From assembly GCF_900187975.1 (NCBI RefSeq), contig NZ_FZPC01000008.1, positions 51,930 to 115,929 on the forward strand: a stretch of 64,000 bases of DNA, in the 5' to 3' direction. Shown one piece after another: positions 8,035-61,853 of the stretch. The notes below the pieces were generated by a model. That model worked only from the letters and a program-made list of their open reading frames with translations. It searched no databases and was not told where the DNA came from. Source of the DNA: Pseudomonas delhiensis (GTDB lineage Bacteria > Pseudomonadota > Gammaproteobacteria > Pseudomonadales > Pseudomonadaceae). Numbering within the stretch: the stretch's first letter is position 1; every line of letters begins with the position of its first letter. The position numbers were made by a program, and so were the translations under genes.

Positions 8035-8207
8035 CCTGTTCCTCCTGGGGCCCGTCAGCCCTCGGCATAATGAAGATGGATAAAGGACACAGACCTTGCT
8101 CGGCGCGCCGAGTTCGGCGGCGGCGTCATAAGCTGATACAGAGCAGGGACGGGCGCCGCCGTCCCTGAGAGTATGCTCCACGGATTTCGTTCTGACAGGA
8201 GCTTCCC

Positions 8208-8642
8208 ATGCGCCGCATCCTCCTTCTCGCCGCCCTCCTCGCCGGCACCGCCCAGGCCGCCCAGCCGTTGACCATCGACGTGCACCGCGACGCCAATTGC
8301 GGCTGCTGCAAGGACTGGATCAAACACCTGCAGGCCAACGGCTTCACGGTCAACGACCACGTCGAGGCGGACATGTCGGCGGTCAAGACGCGCCTGGGCG
8401 TGCCCTACGCCATGGGCTCGTGCCATACCGGGGTGATCGACGGCAAGTTCGTCGAGGGCCACGTACCGGCCCGTGATGTGCTCGCGCTGCGCGAACGCGC
8501 CGACCTGGTGGGCGCCGCCGTGCCAGGCATGCCCATGGGCTCGCCGGGCATGGAGATGGGTGGGCGTTACGATGCCTACCAGGTGCTGGGGTTGGGCAAG
8601 GATGGGAAAGCGGTGGTGTTGGCGGATTATCCGCGGCGTTGA
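8208..8642 (+). CDS. Exported DUF411 metal-binding protein
   Basis: A 144-residue protein with a Sec signal (MRRILLLAALLAGTAQAAQP) and the DUF411 core: HRDANCGCCKDW (thioredoxin-like CxCC motif), then VPYAMGSCHTGVIDG, VEGHVPARDV and a methionine-rich VPGMPMGSPGMEMGG stretch. The His, Cys and Met content suggests copper or another soft metal in the periplasm, as in DUF411 proteins of metal-resistance loci. No metal-resistance gene is next to it, so the ligand is inferred. Confidence 0.82.
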   Translation: MRRILLLAALLAGTAQAAQPLTIDVHRDANCGCCKDWIKHLQANGFTVNDHVEADMSAVKTRLGVPYAMGSCHTGVIDGKFVEGHVPARDVLALRERADLVGAAVPGMPMGSPGMEMGGRYDAYQVLGLGKDGKAVVLADYPRR

Positions 8643-8699
8643 GGTTTTTCTTGGGGGCTTGGAGCCATTCTGCTGTTCTGGGACGTGGGATCGGCTCCG

Positions 8700-8860
8700 C
8701 CCCTCTCCCTAACCCTCTCCCTGAAGGGAGAGGGGACCGTTGGGCAGGCACTGATGTTCTGGAGTCAGCCGGCTAGCATAGAAATTGCCGGCTAAAATCA
8801 AGCCTTATCTCGGCACGGACAAGCCCCCTCTCCCTTCAGGGAGAGGGCTGGGGAGAGGGA
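8700..8860. repeat. Inverted pair of CTCTCCCT-type palindromic repeats
   Basis: Two 37-base copies (8700-8736 and 8824-8860) are reverse complements of each other with few mismatches. Each contains a CTCTCCCT..AGGGAGAG hairpin. They lie between the DUF411 gene and the end of alaC (convergent genes), the usual location of REP-type elements. The 87 bases between them hold nothing I recognise. Confidence 0.65.
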
Positions 8861-8920
8861 AAGAAGCCCCCGCGAAGCACCAATGCATCCGGAGAGCTCC
8901 CTTTCCCATACGCCTTTCGC

Positions 8921-10147
8921 TTACTCCCCCACCTTCGCCCCCTTCGGCAACAACCCATCGGCCCGGAACATCGCCTTGATCCCCCGCACCGCCTGGCGCA
9001 AGCGATCACGGTTCTCGATCAACGCAAAGCGCACGTGGTCGTCGCCATAGTCACCAAAGCCGATACCCGGCGAGACGGAGACCTTGGCGTCCTTCAGCAG
9101 CTTCTTGGCGAACTCCAGCGAGCCCAGGTGCGCGTAGGGTTCGGGGATCTTCGCCCAGACGTACATCGAGGCCTTGGGGTTCTCGACCCTCCAGCCGGCC
9201 TCGTGCAGGCCCTTCACCAATACGTCGCGGCGCGCCTGGTACTGGCTGGCGATGTCGCGCACGCACTGCTGGTCGCCTTCCAGGGCGGCGATGGCGGCCA
9301 CCTGCAGCGGGGTGAAGGTGCCGTAGTCGTGGTAGCTCTTGATCCGCGCCAGGGCCGAGACCAGCTCCGGGTTGCCGACCATGAAGCCGATGCGCCAGCC
9401 GGCCATGTTGTAGCTCTTGGACAGGGTGAAGAACTCCACCGCGATGTCCTTGGCGCCGGGCACCTGCATGATCGACGGCGCTTTCCAGCCGTCGTAGACG
9501 ATGTCGGCGTAGGCCAGGTCGTGCACCACCAGCACGTCGTACTGCCTGGCCAGGGCCACCACGCGCTCGAAGAAGTCAAGCTCCACGCACTGCGCGGTGG
9601 GGTTGGAGGGGAAGCCGAGGATCATCATCTTCGGCTTGGGGATCGACTCGCGGATCGCCCGTTCCAGCTCGTTGAAGAAGTCGATGCCCGGCACCAGCGG
9701 CACCGAGCGCACCTGGGCGCCGGCGATCACCGCGCCGTAGATGTGGATGGGGTAGCTGGGATTGGGCACCAGGATGTTGTCGCCGTGGTCCAGGGTGGCC
9801 AGCATCAGGTGCGCCAGGCCCTCCTTGGAACCGATGGTGACGATGGCCTCGGTTTCCGGGTCGATGTCCACCGCGTAGCGCTCCTGGTACCAGCGCGAGA
9901 TGGCCCGGCGCAGGCGCGGAATGCCGCGGGAGGTGGAGTAGCCGTGGGTGTCCTCGCGCTGGGCGACCTGCACCAGCTTTTCGACGATGTGCGGCGGGGT
10001 GGCGCCGTCGGGGTTGCCCATGGACAGGTCGATGATGTCCTCGCCGCGGCGGCGGGCGGCCATCTTCAGTTCGGCGGTGATGTTGAAGACGTAGGGCGGG
10101 AGACGATCGATACGCGCGAAGCGGCGTGCTGAACGGGGTTCAGTCAT
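8921..10147 (-). CDS. alaC: Alanine-synthesising aminotransferase AlaC
   Basis: A 408-residue class I PLP aminotransferase. Visible features: [20 protein letters not shown] near the N-terminus, [19 protein letters not shown], the aspartate region [10 protein letters not shown], and the PLP lysine in [17 protein letters not shown]. This matches glutamate-pyruvate aminotransferase AlaC of gamma-proteobacteria, which makes alanine from pyruvate with glutamate. It is transcribed divergently from the phzF-like gene. Confidence 0.9.
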
Positions 10148-10290
10148 GATTTCCTCGGTGAACGTAAGCGCCCGGAACCGTCCGAGCGACGCCGGCCACT
10201 GCGGTGGCCTGAAAAGCTGGGCTTTTCTTGTCGGCGAACATATCCGCCGTTAGGCTCGCTGTCGAGTTCTACTTTCAGCCAGGGAGCCCC

Positions 10291-54012: not shown

Positions 54013-54089
54013 GGCTACATAGCTCAGTCGGTTAGAGCGCAGCATTCATAATGCTGATGTCCCAGGTTCAAGTCCCGGTGTAGCCACCA
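54013..54089 (+). tRNA. tRNA-Met (CAT, elongator)
   Basis: A 77-base cloverleaf: acceptor GGCTACA/TGTAGCC, anticodon loop TTCATAA with CAT, T-arm GGTTCAAGTCC, encoded CCA. It sits at the border of an island carrying an integrase, so its 3' end is a likely integration site. No second copy of its 3' end was found in the window. Confidence 0.96.
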
Positions 54090-54170: not shown

Positions 54171-54590
54171 CTAGCCCTTCCAGGGATCAATCAGCGGAAC
54201 ACCAAAGCTTTCGAAGTGCCGGACATTCCGTGTGGCGATCTGCGCGCCATTCAACCTGGCGATCGCCGCAATCTGCCCATCCGCCATATCGGCAACCTCG
54301 CCCCGCGCTTCGCTCGCAGCCACCAGTTCGGCATAGTGCACCGCTGCATCGGCATCGAACGGCAGGATGTTACCGGCAAAGTATTCCCCGAACATTGCAA
54401 GAGCCATGGTGTGGAGCGCCTGTTTACGCTTCCCGTCGGGCAGCTTGGCTACGCCGTAGAGAATCTCTGCCACGGTGATCGCGCTGATGTGCAAATCACT
54501 CACAGACTGCGCATCAAGCCAAGCCACAACTGCCGGATCAGGCTTGGCTCGCATCAGCTCCGAAAGCACATTGGTGTCGATCAGAATCAT
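54171..54590 (-). CDS. vapC: VapC/FitB-type PIN-domain ribonuclease toxin
   Basis: A 139-residue PIN domain: MILIDTNVLSELMRAKPDP gives the first Asp and Glu, and MADGQIAAIARLNGAQIATRNVRHF gives the C-terminal acidic and TRN residues. It ends IDPWKG like many FitB-type toxins. Its start overlaps the antitoxin stop by 4 bp. VapC toxins cut tRNA or rRNA. All catalytic positions I can see are kept, so it looks active. Confidence 0.92.
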   Translation of the reverse strand: MILIDTNVLSELMRAKPDPAVVAWLDAQSVSDLHISAITVAEILYGVAKLPDGKRKQALHTMALAMFGEYFAGNILPFDADAAVHYAELVAASEARGEVADMADGQIAAIARLNGAQIATRNVRHFESFGVPLIDPWKG

Positions 54591-54832
54591 TCGTCAAAAT
54601 CCGCTGCGCGGGCCTTGGTTTTACGCTCCGGCAGTTCCAGTTCACCCCCTCCCAACGACGCAAAGCGGGCATGGATTCGGCTACCCAAGCCCCCACCCTT
54701 CTCTCCCTTGGAGAGCGCTTGAGCGAGGATGACCCTCACCTCCTCTTCCATCGAGCGGCCGTGGCTGGCGGCAACCACGCGAAGCTTGGCTTTGAGATCT
54801 TCATCCAGGTTTCTAATAGTGATGCTGGCCAT
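54587..54832 (-). CDS. vapB: VapB/FitA-type ribbon-helix-helix antitoxin
   Basis: 81 residues. MASITIRNLDEDLKAKLRVVAASHGRSMEEEVRVIL is a FitA-like Arc/MetJ DNA-binding fold. The C-terminal ELPERKTKARAADFDE should wrap around the toxin. Start at 54832 with GGAGG six bases upstream; the in-frame region above is not coding-like. First gene of the vapBC pair, probably autorepressed. Confidence 0.92.
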   Translation of the reverse strand: MASITIRNLDEDLKAKLRVVAASHGRSMEEEVRVILAQALSKGEKGGGLGSRIHARFASLGGGELELPERKTKARAADFDE

Positions 54833-54912
54833 AATCGCCTCCGACGCAATCAATGAAATCACTGATAGCATACTAGGGCTCCTCCCATTACACCAACGGT
54901 TCCTGACAACGT

Positions 54913-56001
54913 TCACAGCTCATCCAGAGAAACCTCCCGAGACGGCTCGTTCACTCGCTTCTCAACGATTCGGCATAGCTCCATATCGTCTTCAGCTTCG
55001 TCGATGTCTGCTGAATCCAGTTGATGCTCCGACTGCACAAGGGGTGATAGACGCATGGCGGACTCCAGATGCTCCGGCGACAGGTGTGCATAACGCATGG
55101 TCATGGTGATGGAGGAATGCCCGAGAATGCGCTGCAACGTCAGTATGTCGCCTCCGCCCATCATGTAATGACTTGCGAAGGTGTGCCGTAGGATATGCGT
55201 CATCTGGCCCGGCGTATGGAATCCACAACGGCGGTAAGCACCGCGAAAGGCGGCACGGCAGGACATGAACAGACGACCGGTGCCAGGCATGCCTCGATTG
55301 AGAATCAGCCTCTCCAGGTCCTTGGGAATGGGCACCGCCCTACTCTGCCGGTTCTTGGTTCGGTGATAGTGGACCTTCCCACCCTGGACGGCGCCTCGGG
55401 AAAGGCTTTCGGCTTCATCCCAACGGGCACCTGTGGCGAGGCACAACATAGCAACGGGGTACGTATGCGTGTTGGTGCTGGCCTTGCACTCCGCCAGCAG
55501 CAGCGACACCTGGTCCAGTGTCAGGAAGGTCAGCTCCACCTGATCGGTCTTGATCTGGCGGACCTTGGCCAGTGGGTTCACCTTGTGCCATGAGCCGAGA
55601 CGAATCAGCTCCGAGAAGATCGCCGACAGGTAGCGCTGCTCATGGTTGACCGTCTCGGGCTTCACCTCGGTCAGTCGATGCTGTCGATAACGCGCCCAGG
55701 CCAGGGAGTCGAATTCGAAGGCGAGCGGATCACCAAGGCGCTTGGCCAAGGCATAGCATCGCGCCAGGCGCTGTTCACCATCTTTCAGGGTGCAGCCATG
55801 GAGGTCATGCCAGACCTTCACCAGATCGGAGAGGCGGTCATCCAACGGGCGTCTCGTCTCCCCCTTCACAGCGAAATAGTCCTGCTCATAGCGGATGGCT
55901 GCTGACCTAGTGGCGAAGCCCTTCTTACGGATACGCCGACCAGAACGGCCGTTGTCGTAGAAGTCAGCGGTCCACGTCTTCCCATCCTTGCGGGCCGTCA
56001 T
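54913..56001 (-). CDS. Tyrosine recombinase (phage/island integrase)
   Basis: A 362-residue integrase. N-terminal arm-binding part (KTWTADFYDNGRSGRRIRKKGF), core-binding domain, and a complete catalytic set: TGARWDEAESL (Arg I), HRTKNRQSRAVPIP (Lys region), THILRHTFASHY (H-x-x-R) and SSITMTMRYAHLSPEHL (Tyr). Transcribed toward vapBC and the tRNA-Met, it is probably the enzyme that placed this island. A decayed relative lies at 56799-57125. A 25-codon ORF overlaps its start. Confidence 0.9.
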   Translation of the reverse strand: MTARKDGKTWTADFYDNGRSGRRIRKKGFATRSAAIRYEQDYFAVKGETRRPLDDRLSDLVKVWHDLHGCTLKDGEQRLARCYALAKRLGDPLAFEFDSLAWARYRQHRLTEVKPETVNHEQRYLSAIFSELIRLGSWHKVNPLAKVRQIKTDQVELTFLTLDQVSLLLAECKASTNTHTYPVAMLCLATGARWDEAESLSRGAVQGGKVHYHRTKNRQSRAVPIPKDLERLILNRGMPGTGRLFMSCRAAFRGAYRRCGFHTPGQMTHILRHTFASHYMMGGGDILTLQRILGHSSITMTMRYAHLSPEHLESAMRLSPLVQSEHQLDSADIDEAEDDMELCRIVEKRVNEPSREVSLDEL

Positions 56002-56228: not shown

Positions 56229-56534
56229 CTAGCCACGACCGGCCAGTGGCTCAACTTCGTGCACGATTTGCTCACCATTTGCCGCATAGGCAGTGGCCAG
56301 CGCGCACGCGCTCTGCAGGTTCATCCAGAAATCAGCCGACGTGCCGAAGTAGCGAGCCAAGCGGATAGCCATATCCGCGGAGACATCTCGACGCTCGCGA
56401 ATGATGTCGTTGACGGTCGGAACCGACACCTTGAGGGCTCGTGCCAAGGTCGTCGGAGTTATCCCCAGCTCCAGCAGGAACTCTTCACGGAGGACTTCCC
56501 CTGGATGGACGGGGCGCATTCCGTTGGTTTTCAT
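56229..56534 (-). CDS. higA: HigA-family antitoxin without adjacent HigB
   Basis: A 101-residue XRE protein: RPVHPGEVLREEFLLELGI, then the helix-turn-helix TTLARALKVSVPTVNDIIRE and RDVSADMAIRLARYFGTSADFWMNLQ. Closely resembles HigA of P. aeruginosa, found at the same place beside tRNA-Met. In that species higB lies directly upstream. Here the 50 bp upstream lead into a vapBC remnant and no HigB frame is seen. Start at 56534 follows GAGGGGGAG. Confidence 0.9.
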   Translation of the reverse strand: MKTNGMRPVHPGEVLREEFLLELGITPTTLARALKVSVPTVNDIIRERRDVSADMAIRLARYFGTSADFWMNLQSACALATAYAANGEQIVHEVEPLAGRG

Positions 56535-56587
56535 GATCTCCCCCTCGTGGTAGCCCACTAATGGCCTGACTGAGTTAGCGATGCGGG

Positions 56588-56798: not shown

Positions 56799-57125
56799 TC
56801 AAAGCTCATCCAACGAAACATCCCTGGAAGGCTCTTCGCGACGCTGCTCCACGATCAGGCACAACTCGACATCGTCGTCGTCAGCCGTTTCAGTAACGTC
56901 GGATATCTCGGTCGACTGCATTAACGTAGATAGAGGCATGAAGGGCTCCAAGTGCTCAGGTGACATGCTCATGATGTTCAAGGAGCGTCCCGGAATGCTC
57001 TGCAAGATTAGGGGGTCCCTTCCTTGCATCCTGTAATGCCTGGCGAAGATGTGCCGTAGGACGTGAACCGTCGACCTGGAGCCTCCAACACCTCCCCGTC
57101 CGCCGATGACCAGGCGGTTGATGTC
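56799..57125 (-). pseudogene. Integrase remnant, C-terminal part
   Basis: An open frame homologous to the end of the integrase at 54913: DINRLVIGGRGG ~ DLERLILNRG, VHVLRHIFARHYRMQGRDPL ~ THILRHTFASHYMMGGGDIL, and the tail MSPEHLEPFMPLSTLMQS ... EEPSRDVSLDEL. The H-x-x-R box remains, but the MRYAHL stretch with the catalytic Tyr is lost, and the N-terminal two thirds are absent. Order integrase-vapB-vapC repeats that of the intact module. Confidence 0.88.
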
Positions 57126-57326: not shown

Positions 57327-59303
57327 TCACAGGTACCTCACCCACTTCGCCCTGGCGCTGGCCTTCACGTCGCAGTTGGACAAGCACGAGCCCATGCCCG
57401 GAATATCCTCCGGCCTGTAGTCCGGCGGGAGGTCCGCCAGGTCGAGTTCGAGGTCGTTCAGGAAGTCGCTGCTGCCCTCTCCCCAGCCGGCGGCGGTGAT
57501 GTAGCCGCGGATCTTGCTGTCGCCCGTGGCGGACAGGCGGTTGCCGGCGATGACGCTGCCGTTGATTTCGCTCTGGCTGCCGAGGGTGATGTCGCCGCCC
57601 CGGAACTGGCCGTCGACCACGCCGCCGGCCAGCAGTCCTATGTTGCCGATGGAGTTGCTCTTCAGCTTGCCCATCGCCATGTCGCACAGGTTGCTGGGGT
57701 AGAGCCCCGTGAAGTCGATGTGGGGGTACTGGATGCTGCAGATGAACTTGAAGCCGCTGTAGTTGACCGCCGAGACGACCACCTGGCCGCCGGTGCTGAT
57801 CGAGCGGGTCGACAGGAAGCTGTTGTGGTAGTTACCGTTGGAGATGTGCAGGTCCCCTTCGAACCACAGGACGCCGGGCGCCAGGCTCTTGCCCGCCAGG
57901 GTCCACTTCCTGTTCCGGCTGTCGTAGGACAGGCAGCCCTGCTCGCTCGCGTGGCCCTGGCAGATCGTCCGGGCCTGCCGGCGATCGGCCGGGGCCGGGT
58001 CGAGGCAGTTGGCGCTGGCGTCGACCTGCAGGCAGAGGAAGTCCCTCCAGCCCCTGCCGTCGTGGGAGTAGTTGCCCAGGAAGTACTCGCCATCGGCGAG
58101 GCCGTTGACGTTGCGCACGGTCACCCGGCGCTGCCCCGCCACGAATTCGAAGACGTAGTTGGCCCCCGCCTTGAGGGTGTAGGCGTCCACCGTCGGTTTC
58201 TGCGGCATGACGTAGGGCTCGAGCCTGGCCATCAGTTCGAAGCTGACTTCCGCCGGCGCCTGGACCTTGTCGATGGCCGGGCAGTTGCTGACAGCCAGCG
58301 CCCTGATGCTGTCGAACGTGGTCCAGCCTACCGCCGGGCAAGTGACGGTCGCCCGGCTGTTGATGCTCCGCACGTCGAGCCAGGCGTTGATGGCGATGTT
58401 CCCCACCGCATTGGCCGTTTCGGCCATGCCGTTGCGCAGGGTGAGCGTCCTGCCGGCAGTCAGGCTGCCGTAGCCGGCGCCGCCGGCGCGGATCTCGCCC
58501 AGGGCGTTGCCGGTCTCCACGCGGCCGTTGTCGATGAGCAGGTTGCCGTTGGTGTTCAGTTCTCCGCTCTGCGCCCCGCTCTGCATGGCGATGCCGCCCA
58601 GCGCCGAGCCCTTGAGCACGGAGGCCGAGCCTTTCAGCGTCAGGGTGCCGTTGGCGTAGGCCTCGCCGACGCTGGCGCTGCCTTCGAGGGTGATGTCCTT
58701 GGTCGCGCGCAGCGACTCCACGCCGTTGACCGAGCCCTTGAGGGTCGCCGAGCCATCGACGTTGAGCTTGGCGTTTTCCTCGCCCTGGATGTCGATGTCG
58801 CCGGAGGCGTTGAGATCGCCGTGGATGTCGATGACGCCGTCGTGCTCCGGGCCGGGGGCGCTGCCGGGCGTCACCTGGTAGACGACCCGCAGCAGCGTCG
58901 CCGCCTGCGCCACCGCATGCCGGTTGCGCAGGTCGGCGGTGATGCTGTACGCCCTGTCCTCCTCCGCCTCCCCGGGCGGCTCGACGTCGATGATCTTCAG
59001 CGTCAGCGCATTGCTTCCCAGGCTGGCCTCCCGCTCGTCGCCCACGGCCAGCCGGGCCAGCCGCGACTCGTCCTCGGGCAGTTGCGAGTCCTCCTCCGCC
59101 AGCTTCAGGAAGTACCGGCGGAAGACCTCCACGCCGGTCCAGACGCCGGCCTGGGACTGGCTGGCGGCCTGCGCCGCCACTTGCCGGTCCTGGTTGCCGC
59201 GCACGCTGAAGATCAGCGACAGGGCGATGACGCCCAGCGCCAGGGCGCTGACCAGGACGGTGAGGATGGTTGCCGCGCCGCGTTGGCGAGAAGGTGCATT
59301 CAT
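57327..59303 (-). CDS. Large PilX-like minor pilin with predicted beta-helical domain
   Basis: 658 residues, several times longer than ordinary PilX. The N-terminus RQRGAATILTVLVSALALGV is a PilX-type class III signal and membrane helix. Residues ~150-320 are a row of short strands of the kind D(I/L)..SG...(V/L)..G (DIHGDLNASGDIDIQGEENA; NGTLTLKGSASVLKGSALGG), like bactofilin or other right-handed beta-helices. A second such stretch lies near the C-terminus (GGDITLGSQSEINGSVIAGN). Cysteines in the C-terminal half could form disulfides. Last gene of the minor-pilin operon; likely at the pilus tip. Confidence 0.75.
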   Translation of the reverse strand: MNAPSRQRGAATILTVLVSALALGVIALSLIFSVRGNQDRQVAAQAASQSQAGVWTGVEVFRRYFLKLAEEDSQLPEDESRLARLAVGDEREASLGSNALTLKIIDVEPPGEAEEDRAYSITADLRNRHAVAQAATLLRVVYQVTPGSAPGPEHDGVIDIHGDLNASGDIDIQGEENAKLNVDGSATLKGSVNGVESLRATKDITLEGSASVGEAYANGTLTLKGSASVLKGSALGGIAMQSGAQSGELNTNGNLLIDNGRVETGNALGEIRAGGAGYGSLTAGRTLTLRNGMAETANAVGNIAINAWLDVRSINSRATVTCPAVGWTTFDSIRALAVSNCPAIDKVQAPAEVSFELMARLEPYVMPQKPTVDAYTLKAGANYVFEFVAGQRRVTVRNVNGLADGEYFLGNYSHDGRGWRDFLCLQVDASANCLDPAPADRRQARTICQGHASEQGCLSYDSRNRKWTLAGKSLAPGVLWFEGDLHISNGNYHNSFLSTRSISTGGQVVVSAVNYSGFKFICSIQYPHIDFTGLYPSNLCDMAMGKLKSNSIGNIGLLAGGVVDGQFRGGDITLGSQSEINGSVIAGNRLSATGDSKIRGYITAAGWGEGSSDFLNDLELDLADLPPDYRPEDIPGMGSCLSNCDVKASARAKWVRYL

Positions 59304-59318
59304 GGTGGACGATCCCCG

Positions 59319-59975
59319 TCAGGCGTCGGATGCAGGAAGGTTGAGGAGGCAGATGCGGTAGCTGACCGGAGGCACGTCGGCCCCGGCCTGCTGCGTCGAG
59401 CTGGGCGCGGAAAGGGTGACCGTGGGGTGCCTCCGGGCCTCGCCTATCGCGCCGAACGGCGAGCACACCTCCTCCGCCAGTTCGATGCGCAGCTGGCTTT
59501 CGCTGCGGTTGCGGAACAGCAGCAGGTCCTCGGCCGGCGCCCAGGCGAGGCTCGCCAGGCCGGTACCCAGCGAGCAGTCGGGCGCCCGCAGGCGCGAGAG
59601 GATGCGCAGGGGCTGGCCGCTTTCCGCATCGCGCCCCGCCCGCTCGACGAGGCCGCCGCAGGTGGGCAGCGCGCCGTCCCGGAAGCGCCAGAGCAAGGCC
59701 TCCCGGGGCTCCGCCTGGCCGTCCAGGGCGAGCCGGGCCACGGCCAGGGCCTCGCCCGCGCCTGCCGCCATGCCGTAGCCCGCCCCCTGGATGTCCATCT
59801 GCAGCGAGACCAGGGCCGTGGCCAGCTCGCCGTCCTGGTTGGCCTCGCGCCTGGCCTGGGTGCCGATGGACGAGAAGGTCCTCAGGCTGGTCATCAGCAC
59901 CAGCATCACCAGCACCGAGATCAGCAGGCCCACCATCAGGCCGACCAGGCTCATGCCCCCTTGCCGGCCCCTCAT
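59319..59975 (-). CDS. PilW-like minor pilin
   Basis: 218 residues. MRGRQGGMSLVGLMVGLLIS is a prepilin peptide (cleavage after GG) in which the usual Glu+5 is replaced by Gly. Then LVMLVLMTSLRTFSSIG and a PilW-like body (LVSLQMDIQGAGYGMAAGAG; GLASLAWAPAEDLLLFRNRS). Its start overlaps the stop of the PilV-like gene (ATGA). Confidence 0.8.
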   Translation of the reverse strand: MRGRQGGMSLVGLMVGLLISVLVMLVLMTSLRTFSSIGTQARREANQDGELATALVSLQMDIQGAGYGMAAGAGEALAVARLALDGQAEPREALLWRFRDGALPTCGGLVERAGRDAESGQPLRILSRLRAPDCSLGTGLASLAWAPAEDLLLFRNRSESQLRIELAEEVCSPFGAIGEARRHPTVTLSAPSSTQQAGADVPPVSYRICLLNLPASDA

Positions 59976-60382
59976 GCCCCGCCTCCCACGGCGATTTCGT
60001 CGCCATCCAGGGACACCTTGAGCAGCAGCGGCGGGCTGATCTTCCCGAGGGTGGTGCCGGCCACCTGCACGGTGGTGGCGGCGCAGCCCGTGACCGTCAC
60101 CGGGATCGGCCGGGCGGAGCCGGGCAACTGGATGACGGCCCCTTCGCGGGCGCACAGGTCGACGCCGTCCTGGCCATTGCGCTGCAGCAGGTCGCGCATC
60201 TGCGCCACCGCCAGGGCCTGCAGGTTGCCGTTGCGCTGGTTGGCCAGGGTCATGGCCATGCCCAGGGCCAGCCCCAGGCAGAGGATCGACATCAGCACCA
60301 CGCCGATCAGGGCATCCAGCAGCACGTAGCCCTGCTGGCCGCGGGCCTCAGTGGAGGGAGACGGAAAGACTGGAGCGTCCAT
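59972..60382 (-). CDS. PilV-like minor pilin
   Basis: 136 residues from the ATG at 60382. The leader MDAPVFPSPSTEARGQQG ends in Gly and the helix is YVLLDALIGVVLMSILCLGL, with Asp in the +5 place of the usual Glu. The body is short (CAREGAVIQLPGSARPIPVT). The start lies 35 bp inside the preceding gene and has a poor ribosome site, so translation is probably coupled; the exact start is uncertain. Confidence 0.72.
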   Translation of the reverse strand: MDAPVFPSPSTEARGQQGYVLLDALIGVVLMSILCLGLALGMAMTLANQRNGNLQALAVAQMRDLLQRNGQDGVDLCAREGAVIQLPGSARPIPVTVTGCAATTVQVAGTTLGKISPPLLLKVSLDGDEIAVGGGA

Positions 60383-60818
60383 AGACAAGTTCGAGCTCGT
60401 TGCCGGCGCAGGTGGCATCCGTGCTGGAGCTCCCGCGGTTGTTGAAGGACATGCAGACCAGGGCGTGGCTCCCGGCCTTGGGACGGGTGGTCAGCTTCTC
60501 GGGCAGGCGGGCCTGCCAGAGCACTGGCGAGGTACAGCTGGCGGGGGTGTCGGCGTCCCTGGCCGAGCGCACGGTCAGTTGGCCCTTGCCCAGGCAGACG
60601 AAGCTGGCCGCCCGGTCCCCGCCGATGCCGTGCGGGTTGCGCAGCGCGGCGGCCTTGGCCCGGCCATAGGCCTCGCGCCAGATGCCTTCGGCGGTGTTCA
60701 GCCTGGCGTGCTCGACCCAGGTCGTGGTGAAGGGGGACGCGAGCATCGCCAGCAGCCCCACCAGCCCCACCACCACCATCATCTCGATCAGCGTGTAGCC
60801 GGCGTGCTTCGGGCTCAT
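60348..60818 (-). CDS. GspH/FimT-like minor pilin
   Basis: 156 residues. MSPKHAGYTLIEMMVVVGLV has a short leader cleaved at G^YTLIE, with the canonical Glu+5, followed by the GspH pattern (TTTWVEHARLNTAEGIWREA; AKAAALRNPHG). Overlaps the preceding pilin gene by ATGA. Confidence 0.85.
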   Translation of the reverse strand: MSPKHAGYTLIEMMVVVGLVGLLAMLASPFTTTWVEHARLNTAEGIWREAYGRAKAAALRNPHGIGGDRAASFVCLGKGQLTVRSARDADTPASCTSPVLWQARLPEKLTTRPKAGSHALVCMSFNNRGSSSTDATCAGNELELVYGRSSLSVSLH

Positions 60819-61249
60819 TTCCAGTCCCTGCCGCCGCCATGGGGGCAATCGCCCCGGCGCACGCCCTTTTCGTCGATGCTCATGTTGCAGTTCTTCGCCG
60901 AGCCGCTGAGGCCGGCGCCCCTGGCCTTGGCCCGGTAGCCGCCGGGCAGCGAGCTCACCGAATAGCTGAAGGCCCGCTCGGACGGGCGCCAGCCGTCGAA
61001 CTGCCGCATGACCGCGGAGGTGCCCTTGAACTCGCCCTCGGGAAAGGCCATCGAGCGCTGGTAGCCGGCCTCGATGACCATGCTCAGGGCGACGAGGTCC
61101 ACCTGCGCGGAGCGGATCCGCGACTTGTTGATGTAGTGGTCGTACGCCGGTAATGCGATGGCGGAGAGGATGCCGACCACCGCAACGGCGACGAGCAGCT
61201 CGATCAGCGAAAAACCGCGCTGTCGACAGTCGAGTGGACGATGACGCAT
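60815..61249 (-). CDS. PilE-like minor pilin
   Basis: 144 residues. MRHRPLDCRQRGFSLIELLV gives G^FSLIE cleavage, followed by AVAVVGILSAIALPAYDHYI, the classic type IV pilin helix, and a globular end with a pair of cysteines (NCNMSIDEKGVRRGDC). First gene of a five-gene operon of overlapping minor-pilin genes. No pilY1, assembly ATPase or secretin is present, so assembly must use machinery encoded elsewhere. Confidence 0.85.
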   Translation of the reverse strand: MRHRPLDCRQRGFSLIELLVAVAVVGILSAIALPAYDHYINKSRIRSAQVDLVALSMVIEAGYQRSMAFPEGEFKGTSAVMRQFDGWRPSERAFSYSVSSLPGGYRAKARGAGLSGSAKNCNMSIDEKGVRRGDCPHGGGRDWK

Positions 61250-61853
61250 GTCTGGACTTGCTCTGGAAGAGTGGAAAAACGGTGCCGCGCGGCGTTGCGC
61301 GTCTTTTTCCACTTAAAGTCACGGAGCGGGGAAAAGCCACCAGGAGAAAGCAAAACAACGGAAGGACTCACATTTAAGCGGCCGAACGGAATAAGTCCGC
61401 ACTCACGCTGCAAACCCCGTCAATCAAAAAATCCAGCTTGCTTCTCAAAACGTTATATTTCCTAGGAATTTTCTGTAATACGGACACCCTGAATCGACGA
61501 GGCATATATCCATGGGATCACGAAAAAGTATCAGCCGGATGAAAAGTACAATCTGAAAACCGTAAATTACCGGGCGACCTGGATATCGCTCCAAACTCAC
61601 CAGGCAGAAATCACGACTATCAACTTCCCCATATATTTCCTACAAACTTTCGGGAACAAGACTTCCTGGAAAGTAACGATTGTTTCACCCAGGGAAAAAC
61701 TCCTTCGCACGCTCGTTAGCTAGCTAACGGCATCCCCGGACGCTACCTTTGTCCCGGCAGGTTCTTCCATTTCCTGCACTCCCGCATGGCCATTGCCCGC
61801 CCCCGCTCCGAGCGGGCAATGGTCTCTTTTTCCCGCTCGTTCAGGACGTCGCC
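61250..61853. other. AT-rich intergenic region upstream of the minor-pilin operon
   Basis: About 600 bp without a convincing gene, clearly richer in A/T than its surroundings between about 61320 and 61720 (e.g. TTATATTTCCTAGGAATTTT; CCCCATATATTTCCTACAAA). It should hold the pilin operon promoter on the minus strand. A perfect 16-base palindrome CGTTAGCTAGCTAACG lies at 61714-61729. The composition suggests acquired DNA and possible silencing by MvaT-like proteins. Confidence 0.6.

Follow-up and report, generated by a model that had tools for sequence, protein, structure and literature searches.

The minus strand of positions 57327-61249 in a 64,000-nucleotide stretch of the Pseudomonas delhiensis genome (contig NZ_FZPC01000008.1, positions 51,930 to 115,929; the whole stretch is called the window hereafter) encodes five pilin-like proteins in the order E-H-V-W-X. 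The tip of a type IV pilus sets what the pilus binds, and in diderm type IVa pili (T4aP) this is credited largely to PilY1. We regard it as fairly probable that the five genes form a self-contained mobile cassette that re-tools the T4aP tip of its host (genome size 6.73 Mb), with a β-solenoid of X in the place of PilY1.

Five pilin-like genes and the predicted fold of X

A sequence-only reading of this DNA had delimited the cassette correctly, and its description of five overlapping genes was nearly right: E and H overlap by 4 bp, H and V by 35 bp and V and W by 4 bp, whereas W and X are separated by 15 bp. A scan for sigma-70 promoters found none. E (60815..61249, minus strand as for all five genes; 144 amino acids) is PilE-like and H (60348..60818; 156 amino acids) is a FimT/GspH-like minor pilin, and both match the general prepilin motif N_methyl over the cut-off (38.8 and 27.6 bits, respectively; for H also TIGR02532). 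The motif is weak in W (59319..59975; 218 amino acids), a PilW-like minor pilin in which glycine replaces the glutamate at mature position 5 (E5); a weak match of W to PRK10557 and a match of E to ComP_DUS (23.3 bits) both stayed under the cut-off. V (59972..60382; 136 amino acids) was named PilV-like from gene order and its N-terminus, and X (57327..59303; 658 amino acids) is a modular PilX/GspK-like pilin that is presumed to sit at the tip. Apart from this general motif in E and H, no match to a specific family exceeded the respective cut-off, and the FimT, PilV, PilW and PilX labels, which follow from gene order and N-terminal features, should be taken as provisional.

The glycine ahead of the hydrophobic helix, by which core minor pilins of T4aP are recognized, is nearly invariant among the cassettes that we collected: at position -1 of the prepilin peptidase site, it was found in E (32 of 33), H (33 of 33), V (31 of 31), W (30 of 30) and X (32 of 33). 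E5 is missing from X in all 33 rows, one of which has a gap there, so that 32 relatives carry a residue at this position. As capping pilins are characterized by the lack of E5 in the consulted part of PMC12040237, X is likely to be the cap.

An AlphaFold2 model of X from the window (25 sequences; predicted local distance difference test score, pLDDT, 85.5) places a helix at residues 8-72, a pilin sheet at 90-145, a β-solenoid at 158-345, a mid-domain at about 374-475, further helix rungs at about 476-625 and a last pilin strand at 649-657. Within the solenoid at 158-345, which has a period of about 16-17 residues, the block pLDDT is 92-97 except for one block at 76, and a second prediction, for X of Acinetobacter terrae (23 sequences, pLDDT 83.2), gave the same layout. 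Structure prediction therefore returned the β-helix repeats that the sequence-only reading had proposed for X, albeit within the limits given above instead of at residues 140-330 and 560-640. The bactofilin-type kinship suggested for these repeats was a wrong one: the match to Pfam Bactofilin (PF04519; residues 159-245, E value 0.0021, 18.7 bits) lies under the gathering score of 27.9 bits, so that membership in this family was rejected, and tapirins and ComZ are nearer in fold.

By VIA-align, the tapirin structure 4wa0 was the top match for both models (window X: Z 16.8, 278 aligned residues, root-mean-square deviation (rmsd) 3.5 Å, model residues 152-639; A. terrae X: Z 17.3, 277 aligned residues, rmsd 3.5 Å), and the C-terminal β-helix fold of tapirins is found in both. 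ComZ (6qvi), which was ranked first by Foldseek for window X (E value 1.7e-4), aligned across pilin and solenoid together (window X: Z 12.7, 353 aligned residues, rmsd 9.1 Å, model residues 44-658; A. terrae X: Z 12.9, 342 aligned residues, rmsd 12.1 Å, model residues 51-672). The best tapirin match exceeds unrelated β-helix enzymes by 3.7 Z units; ComZ is distinguished by its coverage and not by its Z score. A profile search of PDB sequences, up to an E value of 10, yielded six sequences with a best E value of 0.34 and without 6qvi among them, a negative result that does not disprove kinship of X and ComZ, and the lack of GspK or PilX structures among the listed fold matches proves nothing.

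In the models, the solenoid domain appears to be inserted before the last pilin strand, with the C-terminal strand closing the pilin fold. This is indicated by the alignment of A. terrae X to Streptococcus sanguinis PilA, a solved minor pilin of 126 amino acids, which spans model residues 44-672 (Z 8.3, 104 aligned residues, rmsd 3.1 Å), as well as by a second P. jinjuensis cassette (L052:8034-10576), in which X comprises 202 amino acids, lacks the solenoid and keeps the C-terminal KWARYL. The latter can be regarded as a natural solenoid-less form, and as such it represents a natural control that agrees with a split pilin fold. The modeled X proteins combine a pilin module with a second module that is not pilus-specific, as described for modular pilins. 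The earlier idea of a pilin helix joined to a β-helix is thus supported by the model, with the solenoid as an insertion instead of a terminal fusion.

Co-occurrence, absence of PilY1 and divergence of the X ectodomain

All five genes co-occur at 30 of the 33 sites where X reaches 480 amino acids or more, and their order, determined by stop codon, is constant. The five-gene grouping exceeds chance, and the layout noted in the sequence-only reading recurs well beyond the window, in Pseudomonas, Acinetobacter, Psychrobacter, Cellvibrio and Rubrivivax. The 33 cassettes leave out shorter X frames at contig edges (L040 and L045), broken-looking ones (L048 and L053) and the short one of L052, as well as the duplicates L050 and L051. 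Rubrivivax IM151 was counted as incomplete solely because W lies beyond the distance limit (it was located in another scan), and two loci of Acidithiobacillus yielded neither V nor W, the model for H there taking the same open reading frame (ORF) as E, which leaves 31 distinct H rows. Pairwise gene distances agree, with r between 0.75 and 0.91 among E, H, V and W and between 0.67 and 0.75 for comparisons with X, compared to a maximum of 0.31 in a shuffled control (500 shuffles per pair). Furthermore, nonsynonymous divergence (dN) was lower than synonymous divergence (dS) in 29 of 30 gene comparisons, the remaining one being without a dS estimate.

The distribution of the cassette is patchy. 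It was found in 6 of 143 genomes of relatives, in 2 of 369 genomes sampled from the class and in 2 of 398 from the phylum (the host's own included each time), in 18 of 175 genomes from the genus of A. terrae, and on 6 of 72,556 plasmid records. A pattern-based scan of 84,980 species genomes yielded 27 loci, from Pseudomonas, Denitrificimonas, Acinetobacter, Psychrobacter, Cellvibrio, a gammaproteobacterial metagenome-assembled genome, Rubrivivax, Ralstonia, Acidithiobacillus and Paludibacterium. Some of the A. terrae genus hits represent a distant X subfamily (L102-L107 and L117), with frames of 826-947 amino acids and about 29-33% identity in the matched part. Two complete, diverged cassettes lie about 2 kb apart in P. 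kuykendallii (L027:1610-12193), P. carbonaria carries two on separate contigs (L022 and L023), and an apparent broken remnant in another genome (G013, L053:9737-10694) holds pieces of X alone.

The sequence-only reading had stated that no PilY1 follows the pilin genes, and this was borne out in the window as well as in 38 other loci. A hidden Markov model (HMM) built from the C-terminal domains of the host's three PilY1 genes, which are encoded elsewhere in its genome, gave no match at an E value of at most 1e-3 in the ORFs of these 39 loci, a set that includes loci with pieces of X and two duplicates. As an independent control, the same HMM recognizes PilY1 of six other host genomes with E values of 1.4e-19 or better (A. 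terrae, 1.4e-19; A. brisouii, 7.9e-20), and a wider HMM, extended by seven PilY1 segments from these six genomes, found none in the cassette loci either (best E value 0.45). The Pfam family PF05567 was detected in none of the six plasmid records. Of the 14 host genomes, 11 showed a match (9 over the cut-off), which relative to full cassettes was located on a different contig or no less than 100 kb away; in A. qingfengensis, about 24 kb separate a fragment of X with a stop from a weak match to PilY1. No PF05567 was detected in P. carbonaria, Acinetobacter A7.4 and P. aquimaris, and partial matches to the host PilY1 were obtained for them (E values of 5.5e-11, 4.4e-4 and 9.9e-4, respectively). 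P. carbonaria had been considered as a PilY1-less host and was dropped, as its match is a frame of 1561 amino acids. PilM, encoded by a core gene of the pilus machine, was found over the cut-off in 14 of 14 host genomes. The cassette, which differs from the core T4aP arrangement in that PilY1 is not encoded with the minor pilins, would therefore add a second tip type to cells that have a pilus machine and mostly PilY1 as well.

To follow divergence along the cassette, third-position identity was determined at codons with an identical amino acid, separately for each gene and each part of X. Pairs were retained when the first X carried a set motif and the X helices were more than 85% identical, and those from Moraxellaceae were called informative if, duplicates excluded, the helix and at least two of H, V and W reached at least 0.70; this rule was drawn up once the table had been inspected, and three of the seven informative pairs share three cassettes and are thus not independent. 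In 7 of 7 pairs, X beyond the helix showed an identity of 0.47-0.59 compared to 0.74-0.93 for the helix. Given in the order H, V, W, X helix and rest of X, the values were 0.96, 0.99, 0.85, 0.93 and 0.47 for L019/L091; 0.82, 0.84, 0.84, 0.86 and 0.55 for L039/L029; 0.78, 0.84, 0.86, 0.90 and 0.59 for L017/L020; 0.73, 0.81, 0.77, 0.85 and 0.50 for L046/L017; 0.81, 0.85, 0.74, 0.74 and 0.52 for L046/L020; 0.66, 0.75, 0.73, 0.74 and 0.54 for L037/L018; and 0.58, 0.92, 0.71, 0.90 and 0.52 for L107/L117. Since more distant pairs in the same table reach equal values for the rest of X (0.42-0.58), the ectodomains look foreign to their own cassettes. This suggests that the X ectodomain has been exchanged between related Acinetobacter and Psychrobacter cassettes, with recombination as the simplest cause. 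In sliding windows over five pairs, identity falls about 210-550 bp into X, after the helix, and residues of about 250-350 (the far half of the first solenoid) together with the C-terminal window were among the least conserved in 5 of 5 Acinetobacter/Psychrobacter pairs.

Plasmids and the island in the window

The six plasmids carrying the cassette originate from Acinetobacter and Psychrobacter, range from 8.5 to 31 kb and have an identical gene order; five of them are typed as mobilizable. The smallest (8.5 kb) has nine annotated genes, encoding Rep, a replication DNA-binding protein, the five pilins, a relaxase and MobC, and the largest (30.8 kb) has 42 annotated genes. On the A. schindleri plasmid pBDT2091-2 (L021:370-1536, 8091-10226), a fragmented second X, annotated as a FapA family protein, lies beside the long one.

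In the window, the cassette is part of an island next to a tRNA-Met gene (54013..54089, plus strand), which is the presumed integration site. Between the tRNA gene and a tyrosine integrase (54913..56001, minus strand; Phage_integrase 7.5e-21, Int_N 2.7e-31) lie genes for a PIN-domain protein and a FitA-like antitoxin (54171-54916), followed beyond the integrase by an HTH_3 protein (56229-56558) and the C-terminal part of a second tyrosine integrase (56799..57029, minus strand), a remnant that is about 54% identical to the intact one and has no Pfam match of its own. The flanks represented by tRNA-Met and Iso_dh are 956 bp apart in one relative (G016) compared to 7.58 kb in the window, which corresponds to about 6.6 kb of extra DNA; they are also close in a second relative (G011, 1.26 kb), and in a third (G018) a related integrase lies within the gap. 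Because several relatives carry a displaced copy of the tRNA-Met 3' end kilobases away, comprising 57 identical bases in one of them (G010), tRNA-Met appears to be a hotspot for integration in this genus. No attR of tRNA-Met was found in the window, and the right boundary of the island is therefore inexact, located somewhere in 61312-61715. The sequence-only reading had described an accessory island beside AT-rich DNA; the island is confirmed by the comparison with G016, and the AT-richer part is the integrase side (G+C 0.58-0.60), whereas G+C is high in the core of the cassette (0.705 at 58-60 kb).

In A. terrae, an integrase gene lies beside ssrA, 2-4 kb from the cassette (2.2 kb for the integrase). 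It should be noted that the cassette is not always recently mobile, since it adjoins genes for GTP cyclohydrolase II and a periplasmic binding protein in three Pseudomonas species, P. carbonaria (copy b), P. jinjuensis and P. insulae. A similarity search revealed no mobility gene at most loci of the species scan, a weak search given that it failed to recover the integrase of A. terrae, which Pfam had identified. A phage origin of X was rejected, as no relative was found in viral contigs (pattern scan) or in 50,697 phage records; a structure search of viral proteins with X gave one match with an E value below 0.001, an uncharacterized phage protein with TM-scores of 0.19 and 0.11.

A putative tip cassette and its relation to known systems

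In the proposed mechanism, the host prepilin peptidase would cleave all five proteins. These would then assemble into an alternative priming complex, in which E, H, V and W would fill the positions of the known complex and X, lacking E5, would be the cap. The host machine would extend the pilus beneath this complex and thereby carry X to the tip, where its solenoid would occupy the position of PilY1 and bind a surface, a polysaccharide or a neighboring cell. The ligand would differ among X alleles, which would account for the exchange of the ectodomain and the retention of the assembly parts. A β-helix pilin that replaces PilY1 at the tip, as envisaged in the sequence-only reading, is consistent with the modeled solenoid and with the lack of PilY1 in the cassette and is still the best reading, the placement at the tip being conjectural. 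The solenoid of X is probably adhesive.

Several observations weigh against a mobile, adhesive tip cassette or limit its reach. First, its placement of X at the tip is inferred. E5 is absent not only from X but also from W in all 30 complete cassettes (27 with serine, 3 with glycine), which the standard tip model, with PilX as the only core pilin lacking E5, does not predict; the canonical PilW-like protein of the host has E5, and W of L048, which is outside the 30-cassette set, carries glutamate at position 5. At 5 of the 33 sites, the sequence available downstream of X is shorter than 3 kb, two of these being plasmids that were searched in full. With regard to the fold, the Foldseek E value of ComZ for A. 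terrae X is just 0.21, unrelated β-helix enzymes reach Z scores of up to 13.1 and 13.6, which the Z scores of ComZ do not exceed, and the rmsd values of the ComZ alignments (9.1 and 12.1 Å) are large. Moreover, adhesion is deduced from fold kinship and ectodomain divergence, and a shared β-helix fold shows no function; ComZ, the nearest functionally studied relative in whole architecture, is a DNA receptor. The exchange of the ectodomain is itself not uniform. Some pairs show a less than clean drop, with a one-window rebound in L039/L029 (0.89) and L017/L020 (0.78), and identity upstream is uneven in Psychrobacter pairs (0.67-0.94). In the Acinetobacter pair L103/L102, identity does not fall beyond the helix (H 0.72, V 0.79, W 0.81, helix 0.67, just under the cut, and rest of X 0.69), and L103/L104 is a reverse mosaic (X 0.71 compared to 0.49-0.56 for H, V and W). 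No drop was seen for high-GC Pseudomonas and Rubrivivax pairs (rest of X 0.74-0.84), for which codon bias weakens the test. The sequence evidence for exchange is accordingly limited to Moraxellaceae and does not extend to the lineage of the window.

An alternative that we consider unlikely is a DNA-uptake cartridge, in which the solenoid would serve as a tip receptor for free DNA and raise or redirect the natural transformation of its carrier. It draws on the match of ComZ to X over the whole architecture, on the sub-threshold ComP_DUS match in E, and on the Thermus locus, which likewise comprises four pilins and ComZ and in which, according to the consulted part of PMC6561018, PilA1-3 and ComZ are needed for competence and not for piliation. 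However, none of the 33 H rows, 31 of them distinct, contains G-[RK]-x-[RK], given as the motif for FimT DNA binding in passages of PMC12040237, within its final 25 residues, and the distal domain of X is neutral or acidic, with a net charge of -29 to +1 in 25 sequences and a value above zero in 1. Both findings argue weakly against ComZ-like DNA binding; the ComZ solenoid is described as binding DNA despite having no characteristic positive patch (PMC6561018, in part). Furthermore, the exchange of ectodomains is left unexplained if the ligand is invariant, as DNA would be. We prefer adhesion on four grounds, none of them decisive: an adhesin gives the best fold match, the ectodomain is neutral or acidic, it varies, and the FimT DNA motif is absent.

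Whether the changed tip could instead aid the plasmid or island itself, through contact with chosen recipients or by masking the tip from pilus-dependent phages, has to be considered in view of the six plasmids, five of them typed as mobilizable and the smallest devoted to replication, mobilization and the cassette, and in view of TP114, where adhesins of a plasmid-encoded type IV pilus give conjugation its specificity (PMC9045228, passages thereof). We deem this quite improbable, as the similarity search, weak as it was, gave no mobility gene at most loci of the species scan, and three Pseudomonas species keep the cassette beside the GTP cyclohydrolase II gene. Finally, the five genes might belong to the pseudopilus of a type II secretion system or be what is left of a minor-pilin cluster in decay, as the weak names, the lack of a specific family over the cut-off and the broken-looking copies in L053 and L048 could suggest. 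This is very improbable given that no secretion gene was found among 30 flanking proteins scanned at selected loci, the ORFs are intact, dN is lower than dS, and distances are correlated between the genes (r 0.67-0.91 compared to a shuffled maximum of 0.31).

If a PilY1-free set with an exchangeable effector travels between hosts, as we propose for the mobile tip cassette, it would explain changes in pilus function between close relatives. The cassette would also be a compact natural kit for studying the requirements of tip complexes, including a W pilin without E5, and could show whether ComZ-like solenoids bind DNA or surfaces. Going further, mobile elements might trade such tip cartridges, borrow any T4aP machine and exchange the solenoid ectodomain for new targets or to hide from phages, a speculation to which we give little weight; targets could be plasmid recipients, rival cells or surfaces. 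If true, this trade would constitute a transferable, recombining recognition system on one conserved set of adaptors. Among the literature matches listed, from a search that covered part of the literature, there was no description of plasmid-borne sets of minor pilins alone or of a Proteobacterial family that combines a fixed PilY1-free set, plasmid and island life and ectodomain exchange.

The tapirins of Caldicellulosiruptor (PDB 4wa0, 6n2b and 6n2c), the best fold match to the whole distal domain of X, are adhesins that bind cellulose and whose genes lie next to those for type IV pili, and they share 12-14% identity with X over the aligned part. The sequence-only reading knew of no described system with such a layout; the Thermus thermophilus pilA1-4/comZ locus is a precedent, which comprises five genes for four pilins and a solenoid pilin, and ComZ, for which a tip position was proposed, has its β-solenoid ahead of the last pilin strand as X does (consulted part of PMC6561018). 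Together with modular pilins, ComZ makes this kind of protein a known one. The cassette differs from the Thermus locus in its E-H-V-W-X order, its mobile or accessory nature, its occurrence in Proteobacteria that mostly have PilY1 and its apparently exchanged ectodomains, and X differs from ComZ in that the PDB profile search found no sequence match.

The FimU-PilVWX-PilY1 set of T4aP and the clusters of Myxococcus xanthus resemble the cassette as full minor-pilin sets that work with one major pilin and one machine; in M. xanthus, three minor-pilin/PilY1 clusters serve one machine, and the spare ones were proposed to vary tip properties (PMC7541494, as far as its consulted passages go). Each of these sets includes PilY1, whereas the cassette has none and its effector is built into X. 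Similarly, PilB and PilC of S. sanguinis bear an effector module on a minor pilin that is likely displayed at the tip and was compared to PilY1, and PilB provides an example of a pilin-grafted module that can serve as an adhesin (passages of PMC8179133). Their von Willebrand factor A (vWA) or lectin modules follow the pilin, in contrast to the solenoid of X, which lies within the pilin fold and belongs to a tip set that moves as a cassette. Lastly, TP114 parallels the cassette as a case of plasmid-borne variation of pilus adhesins; according to the part of PMC9045228 consulted, it encodes its own pilus with the major pilin PilS, whereas the plasmids described here carry the tip set alone.

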